Assembly (NCBI GenBank): GCA_030526485.1
Contig: JAUNCS010000003.1
Coordinates: 1 to 64,000, forward strand
Length of the DNA stretch: 64,000 nt
From: Erysipelotrichaceae bacterium
GTDB taxonomy: Bacteria; Bacillota_I; Bacilli_A; Erysipelotrichales; Erysipelotrichaceae
Direction: 5' to 3'
Shown: positions 48,778-53,159 of the stretch, piece by piece
Position numbering within the stretch: the first letter of the stretch is position 1
Layout of the letters: every line of letters starts with the position of its first letter
Translations under genes and position numbers: made by a program
The notes under the pieces: generated by a model
What the model saw: only the letters and a program-made list of their open reading frames with translations
The model's database searches: none
What the model was told of the DNA's origin: nothing

Positions 48778-49227
48778 ATGAAATTAGCAGAAGCATTACA
48801 GCAAAGAGCTGACTTAAATATCAAAATATCAGAATTACGTCATAGATTATCTTTTAATTTAGTAGTTCAGGAAGGTGAAAAGCCTGCTGAAGATCCAAAA
48901 GATTTAATCAATGAATTAAATTCTTCTTTCGAACAGTTAGAACAGTTAATCAAAAAGATTAATTTAACTAACTGCAATACATTGGTTGATGGTAAGTCTT
49001 TAACAGAATGGATAGCTGAAAAGGACTGTTTGAGGACAAGAATTGATGCTTATAGGGACATTGTTTCCAAAGCTTCAAATTTATGTGGTCGAATGACTAG
49101 AACAGAAATTAAGTATTTACCAACAGTAGATGCTCGTGATATCCAGAAAACAGTGGATACTTTATCAGCTAAGTTAAGAAAAGTTGATAATTTAATTCAG
49201 CAGACTAACTGGTCAACTGATATTTAA
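48778..49227 (+). CDS. DIP1984-family protein
   Basis: 149 residues, largely helical and charged. It opens with the family pattern KLAEALQQRADLNIKISELRHRLSFNLVVQEGEKPAEDP and continues with LNSSFEQLEQLIKKINLTNC and LTEWIAEKDCLRTRIDAYRDIVSKAS; the helices likely form a coiled-coil bundle. DIP1984 (once called septicolysin-like) has no settled activity. Its place at the head of an operon with RtcB and an RlaP-like protein suggests a role in RNA repair, perhaps RNA binding. Strong AGGAGGT ribosome-binding site. Confidence 0.85.
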   Translation: MKLAEALQQRADLNIKISELRHRLSFNLVVQEGEKPAEDPKDLINELNSSFEQLEQLIKKINLTNCNTLVDGKSLTEWIAEKDCLRTRIDAYRDIVSKASNLCGRMTRTEIKYLPTVDARDIQKTVDTLSAKLRKVDNLIQQTNWSTDI

Positions 49228-49237
49228 ACTAATTTGG

Positions 49238-49377
49238 TGTTTGTGGCTGGGATGTGATCTCTAGAAACGGAGAATGCGTTTCAATATCTTTCAAGATGTA
49301 AAGGATTGGTAAGGTAACAGGGCGACCCGGTGGGTTCGAATCCCTCTTATAATTTAGGCCCTTACAGCTTACAAGTG
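49238..49377 (+). ncRNA. Candidate tRNA-like structured RNA in the rtcB operon
   Basis: The 268-base gap before rtcB has no ORF but reads like a folded RNA. A perfect T-loop TTCGAAT (49335-49341) is closed by GTGGG / CCCTC (49330-49346, one T-T mismatch), like the T-arm of a tRNA. A long-range helix pairs 49241-49249 (TTGTGGCTG) with 49365-49374 (CAGCTTACAA, one bulge). Inside are hairpins GAAACG/CGTTTC (49264-49282) and ATCTT/AAGAT (about 49286-49297), and a possible GTAAGG/CCTTAC helix (49309-49314 with 49360-49365). There is no anticodon arm and no CCA end, so it is not a normal tRNA. Y-RNA-like tRNA mimics in other RtcB loci are the closest known analogy. Ends are approximate. Confidence 0.55.
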
Positions 49378-49444
49378 TATTGTTACTTTAATAAATAATT
49401 ACCTAACATCAGCTACAAAAGGGTGGGAAAAGGGGAAAATGGTT

Positions 49445-49472
49445 ATTGTGTCATTCATGTAAGCGACACAAT
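49445..49472 (+). promoter_or_regulatory. Stem-loop upstream of the rtcB ribosome-binding site
   Basis: Perfect 8-bp inverted repeat ATTGTGTC / GACACAAT with a 12-base loop, 13 bases before TGGAGA, the ribosome-binding site of rtcB. It could be a processing site that separates the upstream RNA from rtcB, or a translational control element. A G-rich tract (49421-49435) lies just before it. Confidence 0.5.
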
Positions 49473-49495
49473 TTCACTATTAAATGGAGAATAAC

Positions 49496-51510: not shown

Positions 51511-51549
51511 GATATCTGTGACAATTTAAAAACAGATGTCTTTGTTATT
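51511..51549 (+). terminator. Possible terminator after the RNA-repair operon
   Basis: Stem GATATCTGT / ACAGATGTC (one G-U pair) followed by TTTGTTATT. The T-run is imperfect, so termination may be partial. Confidence 0.5.
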
Positions 51550-51601
51550 AGTGCCAAAATTGACACTAATAATGTCAAAAATGGCACTAATAGATTATAA
51601 T
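51547..51601 (+). promoter_or_regulatory. Double-palindrome operator and -10 box of the AlbA_2 gene
   Basis: ATTAGTGCCA-AAAT-TGACACTAAT (51547-51570) is a palindrome with one mismatch. A second, weaker copy is centred 21 bp downstream (ATGTCA-AAAA-TGGCACTAA, to 51590). Together the sites run up to TATAAT (51596-51601). The second site covers the likely -35 (TGTCAA, 17-bp spacer). This is a strong candidate for self-repression by the AlbA_2/HTH protein. The ATG at 51608 is six bases after TATAAT. Confidence 0.7.
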
Positions 51602-51607
51602 GTAGAT

Positions 51608-52942
51608 ATGATTATTTATATTGAAAGTGAGAATACTGAATTAAAAGAAAAATACAATGAAAACTTTGTTCGCGAAGTAGTGGCTTTTCTTAATAGTTCA
51701 GGAGGCCATATCTATTTGGGTATTGATGATAAGGGAAATATCAAAGGTGTTAGCAAAGTAGATGAAACACTAAAACTGATATCGGATTGTATAAGCGACC
51801 AAATAGAGCCTAGTCCTCATAATGAAGTTAAAAATGAAATTATCTATGAAGATGGTTTGCCGATTATTGTGACTAGTGTCAGCAAGGGTATACGTCCAAT
51901 ATATTGTGTAAAGAAGTATGGCTTTTCTTCTAAAGGATGTTTGGAAAGACTGGGTACTACCTGCAAGGAAATGACCAGCGAAGAAATCAAATATCGCTAC
52001 CGTCAGCAGTTTGTTGATTCTGATTACATGTTGCAGGCTCCAGCCAAGTATGCACCGCTTTCCTTTGATATGATGAAAATCCTGTTAACAAGCCAGGGTA
52101 TGCATATCAATGAAAACTCTTTTGAAGCATCTTTTAATCTGAAAAGAATGGATGGGAACTATAATCTGATGGCCGAGATACTGGCTGATAGGAATATGGT
52201 TCCGTTGATTTTTGTGAAATTCTCAGGATATGACAAGGCTTCTATTTCCCAAAGAAGTGACTACGGTTCACAAAGTATATTGCTGGGATATCAGAAATTA
52301 AAGGATCGATTAATAGCGGAAAACATCTGTAAAACTGATACTAAGGTTAGACCAAGAATTGACCGTTATTTATACGACATGGATAGTGTGAATGAAGTTT
52401 TAGTCAATATGCTGGTACATAATGACTGGACCATCAGTGAGCCATTGGTGTCTTTTTATGCAGATAGAATAGTTTTTACTTCCCATGGTGGTTTACCGCA
52501 TGGTGTAAGCATTGAAGACTTCTTTAATGGTGTCAGTCATCCAAGAAATACAGTATTAATGCGTGTATTTTTAAATATGGGTATTGTAGAACACACGGGA
52601 CATGGGGTACCTACTATTGTTAAGAAATATGGACAAAAGGCCTTTGATATCAGGGATAACTATATCAATGTGACTATTCCTTTTGATAAGGAAGTAATGG
52701 CACTGATGCCAAGAGTTGGCACTGTTGAAGAATTACCATTTATTTATAATCCACTTACTTTAAACGAACAGATGGTAATGGAAGAATTAATAAATAATCC
52801 TGAACTGACATATGACGAATTAACAGGTTTAACCGGCCTTTCGCGCAGAACTGTATCAAGGGTTATCTGTTCACTGATTGATAAAGGTAATATCGAAAGA
52901 ATTGGTAACAATAAGAAGGGTTACTGGAAAATATTGAAATAA
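51608..52942 (+). CDS. AlbA_2/Schlafen-type ATP-binding HTH regulator
   Basis: 444 residues from ATG 51608. Earlier ATGs in frame (51536, 51572) fall inside the operator and promoter. The N-terminus (about 5-125) is an AlbA_2 domain: ESENTELKEKYNENFVREVVAFLNSSGGHIYLGIDDKGNIKGV. A middle region (about 140-370) holds a GHKL-like ATPase-type part with LVNMLVHNDW, GGLPHGVS and GIVEHTGHGVP motifs. The C-terminus (about 385-444) is a winged helix (TYDELTGLTGLSRRTVSRVICSL). Such proteins regulate transcription or defence-related genes, and the paired palindromes just upstream suggest autoregulation. The mRNA is predicted to be leaderless. Confidence 0.85.
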   Translation: MIIYIESENTELKEKYNENFVREVVAFLNSSGGHIYLGIDDKGNIKGVSKVDETLKLISDCISDQIEPSPHNEVKNEIIYEDGLPIIVTSVSKGIRPIYCVKKYGFSSKGCLERLGTTCKEMTSEEIKYRYRQQFVDSDYMLQAPAKYAPLSFDMMKILLTSQGMHINENSFEASFNLKRMDGNYNLMAEILADRNMVPLIFVKFSGYDKASISQRSDYGSQSILLGYQKLKDRLIAENICKTDTKVRPRIDRYLYDMDSVNEVLVNMLVHNDWTISEPLVSFYADRIVFTSHGGLPHGVSIEDFFNGVSHPRNTVLMRVFLNMGIVEHTGHGVPTIVKKYGQKAFDIRDNYINVTIPFDKEVMALMPRVGTVEELPFIYNPLTLNEQMVMEELINNPELTYDELTGLTGLSRRTVSRVICSLIDKGNIERIGNNKKGYWKILK

Positions 52943-52985: not shown

Positions 52986-53070
52986 TGGTGCACCAAACAA
53001 GATTTGAACTTGCACGAATTGCTTCACACGCCCCTCAAGCGTGCGCGTCTACCAGTTCCGCCATTGATGC
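52986..53070 (-). tRNA. tRNA-Leu (GAG anticodon)
   Basis: Minus strand, 85 bases with encoded CCA. Acceptor GCATCAA / TTGGTGC, class II long variable arm, anticodon loop CTTGAGG (GAG), T-loop TTCAAAT. Reads CUC/CUU leucine codons. Confidence 0.92.
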
Positions 53071-53073
53071 AGA

Positions 53074-53159
53074 TGGTGCGCAAGACGGGACTTGAACCCA
53101 CATGGTGTTAACCATACGATTCTGAGTCGTACGCGTATACCAATTCCGCCACTTGCGCA
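53074..53159 (-). tRNA. tRNA-Leu (CAG anticodon)
   Basis: Minus strand, 86 bases with encoded CCA. Acceptor TGCGCAA / TTGCGCA, class II variable arm, anticodon loop CTCAGAA (CAG), T-loop TTCAAGT. Three bases upstream of the second tRNA-Leu, so they are co-transcribed. A likely -10, TACAAT, lies at 53167-53172 on the minus strand. Confidence 0.93.

Follow-up and report, generated by a model that had tools for sequence, protein, structure and literature searches.

Bacterial RNAs that are both complex and highly conserved are rarely found outside Rfam. RNAs such as tmRNA, 6S, OLE, raiA, ROOL and the CRISPR guides are generally tied to unusual chemistry or regulation, and in the TnpB/omegaRNA systems the partner of a protein is a structured RNA encoded at the 3′ end of its gene. 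The raiA RNA (RF03072) is a highly conserved, pseudoknotted bacterial noncoding RNA of ~200 nt with unknown function (PMC11751092).

The RNA considered here lies on the forward strand of a 64,000-nt stretch of DNA, called the window in the following, from an Erysipelotrichaceae bacterium (assembly GCA_030526485.1, contig JAUNCS010000003.1, positions 1–64,000). It occupies the gap between two plus-strand genes, that of a DIP1984 family protein (DUF6847, 48778–49227) and rtcB (PF01139, 49484–50701; judged by the ribosome-binding site, the start would be 49497). The covariance-model match extends over 49230–49435 (+), scores 96.3 bits with model R1 and 99.0 bits with model R2, and begins 3 nt past the DIP1984 stop codon. 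An earlier note on this DNA had described the gap as free of reading frames, which agrees with the present analysis, as no ORF of ≥60 aa begins between the two genes. No Rfam match is found in the gap at E up to 10, and no Rfam 15 family matches the window, its relatives or the best copies at relaxed thresholds. A search of the open literature, a scope that leaves aside subscription papers such as the RNA-repair paper of Burroughs and Aravind (2016), found no description of the RNA, no DIP1984–RNA link and no DIP1984–RtcB link. The family is new in the sense that it is absent from Rfam 15 and from the open-literature descriptions found.

In size, conservation and the presence of pseudoknots the RNA is similar to the raiA RNA, which, however, has no link to DIP1984; identity with RF03072 was rejected, there being no Rfam match in the window or the homologues at relaxed E. 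A raiA search of 100 genomes of the window's phylum was also negative and, having no positive control, says little alone. The bacterial Y RNA/YrlA has in common with the present RNA a partial tRNA mimicry and, in the window, the proximity to rtcB. Y RNA/YrlA is associated with Ro60 and RtcB, whereas the window RNA is linked to DIP1984 and is built around a P1/P2 and pseudoknot core. The Y-RNA analogy drawn in the earlier note is thus abandoned, in view of this different architecture and of an Rfam Y-RNA search that was negative in the gap at E up to 10; no TROVE (Ro60/Rsr) match is found in the six proteins around the RNA. With tmRNA the combination of a T-arm and pseudoknots in one molecule is shared, but the window RNA has neither an acceptor stem nor a tag reading frame, and both ARAGORN and Rfam are negative. 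The gene-then-RNA layout is the same as for TnpB/omegaRNA, from which the locus differs in that DIP1984 is a helical protein of 149 aa and contains no nuclease; a guide-like variable segment was not noticed in the RNA.

Distribution of the RNA and its association with DIP1984

When GTDB genomes were scanned with an alignment of DIP1984, 80 loci were obtained. The R1 covariance model, which comprises 52 aligned copies and 192 positions and contains the nested structure only, matches 77/80 of them downstream of DIP1984 with E ≤ 3.4e-6. At two of the remaining loci (L086 and L093) the contig ends no more than ~100 nt past the stop codon; the third (L041) is apparently without the RNA. The window sequence is part of the training set of the model; 30 of the 80 scan loci lie outside training, and 27 of these match as well. 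The untrained matches include Mycobacterium, Streptomyces and Streptantibioticus plasmids (50–87 bits), Picosynechococcus (52 bits), Paracoccus plasmids (45 bits) and, weakly, Acinetobacter plasmids (18–21 bits). Loci of metagenome-assembled genomes (MAGs) labelled as Bacteroidales, Spirochaetaceae/Treponema and Chloroflexi also match; because such labels can be wrong, the complete plasmids, of Actinomycetota, a cyanobacterium and proteobacteria, are the firmest evidence for occurrence across phyla. As judged from these model matches, the RNA is a pseudoknotted family of ~200 nt found 3′ of DIP1984 in at least seven phyla. The window belongs to it, with a model match that includes P1, P2, P3, P5 and both pseudoknots, and DIP1984 genes elsewhere have a similar stretch directly downstream irrespective of the next gene. 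Six Bacteroidales-labelled copies (L018, L019, L022, L048, L055 and L068) are partial matches in which the 5′ GGTAG is missing along with the GAGGGTGGG box on the 3′ side; in several of them, the closing helix is continued by a terminator-like run of T.

The genome-wide searches give the same picture of pairing. The window's phylum was covered by 295 genomes; 4 of them have the RNA, every one a DIP1984 carrier, and it is located at the DIP1984 gene; the window RNA is the sole copy that the R1 search finds in its genome. One clostridial family was represented by 119 genomes, of which 16 have the RNA, each time beside DIP1984, and 19 have DIP1984 above the cut-off; the RNA without DIP1984 occurs in 0/119. 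As for the apparent DIP1984-only genomes, G539 does have the RNA (30 bits), which there comes after a GNAT gene located between it and DIP1984, in G510 the locus runs off the contig edge, and G533 carries a divergent relative without the RNA. In a spirochaete family (145 genomes), both partners are found in three genomes and just a 3′ remnant of the RNA, with no DIP1984, in two, one of the remnants being near a transposase-like ORF. A single RNA copy is found in 16/16 genomes tested. In G460, two tandem RNA copies follow one DIP1984 gene (L139:4586-4995), and a GNAT gene sits between DIP1984 and the RNA not only in G539 but also at L034.

The spacing is constant, with a median of 28 nt (interquartile range 27–32) from the stop codon to the first P2 base at the family loci. 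RNA distances correlate with protein distances (r = 0.55, a value reached in 0/2000 permutations), a correlation that shared descent alone could produce. Terminators are present within 90 nt after the RNA at 22/78 loci, compared to 0.4 expected. In the window, an 8-bp hairpin followed by TTTC (49445–49472, +) is weak and terminator-like and was not called by the terminator scan; the promoter scan gave a number of sites not above that of shuffles. No other neighboring gene family reaches beyond six loci, the six in question being close relatives; one larger neighbor cluster probably consists of antisense shadow ORFs of DIP1984. Since the RNA recurs 3′ of DIP1984 in at least seven phyla, the RNA and the protein probably constitute a working pair. 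At L002 the RNA copy precedes the gene of the hpf/raiA protein, a ribosome hibernation factor, probably by chance, and unrelated genes follow elsewhere. An empty insertion site was sought via the neighbors of L070 and via the hpf neighbors in relatives, and was not found.

DIP1984 is found on 369 plasmid records, mostly of Acinetobacter (340 Acinetobacter plasmid records). The Acinetobacter plasmid gene named 'septicolysin' is DIP1984 and is accompanied by a divergent RNA copy (L013:4489-4676); 'septicolysin' on Acinetobacter plasmids has been located in shuffled dif modules (PMC13141974). In viral contigs DIP1984 is rare: two patterns were searched there and nothing was found, and there are two full-length matches. 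One (L101:4001-4600) is a relative with 30% identity that has another ORF right behind it and is matched by neither R1 nor R2; the other (L100) is of the Acinetobacter type.

Secondary structure and likeness to tRNA

The RNA is closed by two stacked helices. P1 pairs 49241–49246 with 49413–49418 and covaries, and P2 pairs 49251–49255 with 49406–49410, with 99.5% of the cells paired and both-side changes in 5/5 pairs. The earlier note had proposed a closing helix between 49241–49249 and 49365–49374, and the corresponding columns pair in 35.4% of the cases in 78 homologues, compared to 34.8% after shuffling. The 5′ strand of that proposal is kept in the conserved helix; its conserved partner is 49413–49418, and the helix continues into P2.

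Inside the closing stack, the P3 hairpin (GAAACG/CGTTTC, 49264–49282) is a helix of the family, and pseudoknot 1 is formed across it by TCTC 49258–49261 and GAGA 49270–49273; this pairing covaries and is absent from the aligning model. The P5 hairpin (GGT/ACC, 49313–49327) covaries in the family, its pairing in the window being read from the sequence and weaker than in most homologues. The GGGC in its loop (49320–49323) pairs with GCCC 49358–49361 to give pseudoknot 2, with both-side changes in 5/5 family pairs. The P6 T-arm (49330–49346) is 96.6% paired where present.

Altogether, 36 pairs are proposed (P1, P2, P3, P5, P6 and the two pseudoknots), of which 89.1% are standard in 78 copies, compared to 68.7% for shuffled and 37–44% for slid alignments. 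The pairs contain 564 double-change cells vs 153 after shuffling, with both-side changes in 35/36, and the strongest covarying pairs in an unsupervised column-pair scan are these same helices. For the pseudoknots, which are outside the aligning model, there are 53 double-change cells vs 19 (0/500 shuffles). Folded alone, the window sequence is as stable as its shuffles (z = −0.09), and the case for the structure is therefore comparative. The conserved structured RNA that had been proposed for the gap is in this way borne out by covariation across homologues; of the two helices for which compensatory changes had been called for, the T-stem has them (P6 covaries in the family), whereas the proposed closing helix remains at the shuffle level. 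New relative to the earlier note are both pseudoknots, the AGGGTGGGAAAAGGGG box at the 3′ end and the association of the RNA with DIP1984 genes.

Between P6 and the 3′ strand of P2 (49347–49405) the RNA is conserved, the 3′ strand of pseudoknot 2 being the sole part of a covarying helix. This region includes the conserved segment ACAGCTTACAAGTGTATTGTTAC (49364–49386; alignments A2 and A4), which has no covarying helix. The G-rich box AGGGTGGGAAAAGGGG at the 3′ end (49420–49435) is near-invariant except in some Bacteroidales. The region 49347–49405 and the 3′ box GAGGGnGGGnnnGGGGA are candidates for tertiary or protein contacts.

The likeness to tRNA is partial. A 7-nt loop of the tRNA T-loop type is present in 46/78 copies, the commonest being the TTCGAAT that is also found in the window (49335–49341). 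The perfect T-loop reported in the earlier note is therefore there, and the accompanying five-pair stem has a U-U mismatch (49331/49345). A D-loop-like UGG just 5′ of P5 (49307–49309 in the window) co-occurs with the T-loop, being present in 40/46 copies that have the loop vs 9/32 of the others (p = 2e-7; p = 5e-4 over 41 sequence clusters). This co-occurrence suggests a tRNA-elbow-like module, in which UGG and T-loop would resemble the contact of the D-loop GG with the T-loop. The order of UGG, 5-bp hairpin and T-arm would match that of D-loop, anticodon arm and T-arm in tRNA, but the hairpin loop is engaged in pseudoknot 2. The T-arm is missing in 40% of the copies, so that the elbow is not essential. 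The description as a tRNA-like RNA accordingly holds for the elbow-like part, and for nothing else: acceptor stem, D-stem, anticodon and CCA are lacking, the absence of the last two having been noted already, and ARAGORN finds no tRNA in the gap. Identity with tRNA was rejected, as of acceptor stem, D-arm, anticodon arm, T-arm and CCA only the T-arm is present.

Possible roles of the RNA and the DIP1984 protein

The window protein (149 aa, four helices) is a clear member of DUF6847 (PF20935, E = 2e-48; 164.4 bits with a cut-off of 27) and the putative partner of the RNA. Its AlphaFold model (pLDDT 93.8) consists of four helices and has the same fold as 3KDQ (Z 16.1, 148 residues, rmsd 1.9), the Corynebacterium DIP1984 member, available as a structure since 2009 and deposited as functionally unknown; no description of an RNA partner was found for 3KDQ. 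Beyond 3KDQ, the fold search returned generic helical matches, with no confident RNA-binding relative and no nuclease or toxin fold. The median pI of DIP1984 is 6.3, and RNA binding is not obvious from the charge because the protein is not basic.

On balance, we lean toward the reading that DIP1984 and the RNA stem from one shared transcript and form an RNA–protein particle, in which the RNA acts in trans. The RNA would be transcribed together with the DIP1984 mRNA, from its 3′ part, and would fold into a compact core made of the P1/P2 closing stack, the two pseudoknots and often the elbow-like T-arm. It would remain bound to the DIP1984 protein in a two-component particle, whose elbow-like module may touch a tRNA-handling partner, such as the ribosome or a tRNA-modifying or tRNA-processing enzyme. 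Transcription, processing, binding and elbow mimicry are inferred. In favor of the particle are the strict pairing of the RNA with DIP1984, the complexity of the RNA, the terminators that follow it and the separated or duplicated copies; the GNAT-separated copies (L034, G539) and the tandem ones (G460) are counted in its favor as signs that the RNA may be a unit of its own. Against it are the non-basic character of DIP1984, the lack of a confident RNA-binding fold relative and the missing T-arm in 40% of the copies. A wider proposal, which we put forward tentatively and with somewhat less than even confidence, is that DIP1984 and its elbow-mimicking, doubly pseudoknotted RNA represent a new class of RNA–protein particles, horizontally spread through at least seven phyla and acting on the translation or tRNA machinery.

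The constant position of the RNA would also be explained by a cis-acting 3′UTR, which is the main rival. Here, the RNA would determine how stable the DIP1984 mRNA is or how it is processed or translated (DIP1984 might, for instance, bind its own 3′UTR), and would have no trans function. In favor of such an element, the RNA invariably lies a short distance past the DIP1984 stop codon and has terminators after it. However, in elaboration and conservation the RNA goes far beyond what 3′UTR controls usually show; two loci have a GNAT gene between DIP1984 and the RNA, another has the RNA in duplicate, and we consider the 3′UTR reading rather unlikely.

A toxin–antitoxin-like or defence module, in which one of the two components holds the other in check and the pair persists by protecting or stabilizing its carrier, is improbable: DIP1984 has no nuclease or other toxin fold, PADLOC gives one weak match only, and there is no repeat-type RNA antitoxin. 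The patchy distribution, the degraded remnants and the occurrence on the 369 plasmid records and in dif modules would nevertheless fit such a module. Even less probable is a self-acting catalytic RNA with DIP1984 as a helper, since no Rfam ribozyme matches, although the ~70 conserved unpaired positions and the two pseudoknots are ribozyme-like.

The interest of the RNA lies in its span of several phyla, in its association with just one dedicated protein, itself functionally unknown, and in its carriage on plasmids, many of Acinetobacter among them. DUF6847 gains its first concrete hypothesis, an RNA partner.

The rtcB neighborhood

For the RNA, which rtcB adjoins in the window, the earlier note had proposed a role as a substrate, decoy or sensor for the RtcB/RlaP/DIP1984 proteins. 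By tblastn, no RtcB, RlaP, Schlafen or WYL homologue is found at the 80 other DIP1984 loci, most of which include 3 kb of flanking DNA to either side. Within the genus of the window, there are genomes that carry RtcB and no DIP1984, and the only other genome with DIP1984 (G016) lacks RtcB. Moreover, R1 finds nothing at E below 0.01 in 13 rtcB loci taken from relatives. By this comparison of loci, rtcB is an occasional neighbor of the RNA, lying outside the conserved unit, and the RNA belongs with DIP1984; assignment as an RtcB-operon RNA was rejected, conserved linkage to rtcB being seen at 0/80 loci. A role with the RtcB/RlaP repair enzymes, whether as decoy, sensor or substrate, for which the adjoining rtcB and the T-arm would speak, is hence contradicted as the family function by the 0/80 loci, the independent occurrence of RtcB and DIP1984 and the RNA-free rtcB loci of relatives, and is most improbable.

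An RNA beside rtcB need not be part of RNA repair. In a genome of the same genus (G014), a ROOL RNA (RF03087, 192 bits; L152:653-1172) lies directly upstream of rtcB, in the place taken by DIP1984 and the RNA in the window. In another (G008), an 880-nt GC-rich stretch with no long ORF and no Rfam match lies between rtcB and a diverged homologue of the WYL gene found in the window (L145:2812-3688); its order and size are as in the window, and it is possibly another large RNA. In most relatives of the genus, the neighbor of rtcB is not DIP1984 but a DUF2828 protein (L144:2752-4197, with DUF7788; L145:5-985). In the window itself, a Schlafen/AlbA_2 protein with a RecG-type C-terminal domain (51536–52942) is encoded immediately downstream of the rtcB–rlaP pair, and two tRNA-Leu genes (GAG and CAG; 52986–53158, minus strand) are found just past the rtcB region.
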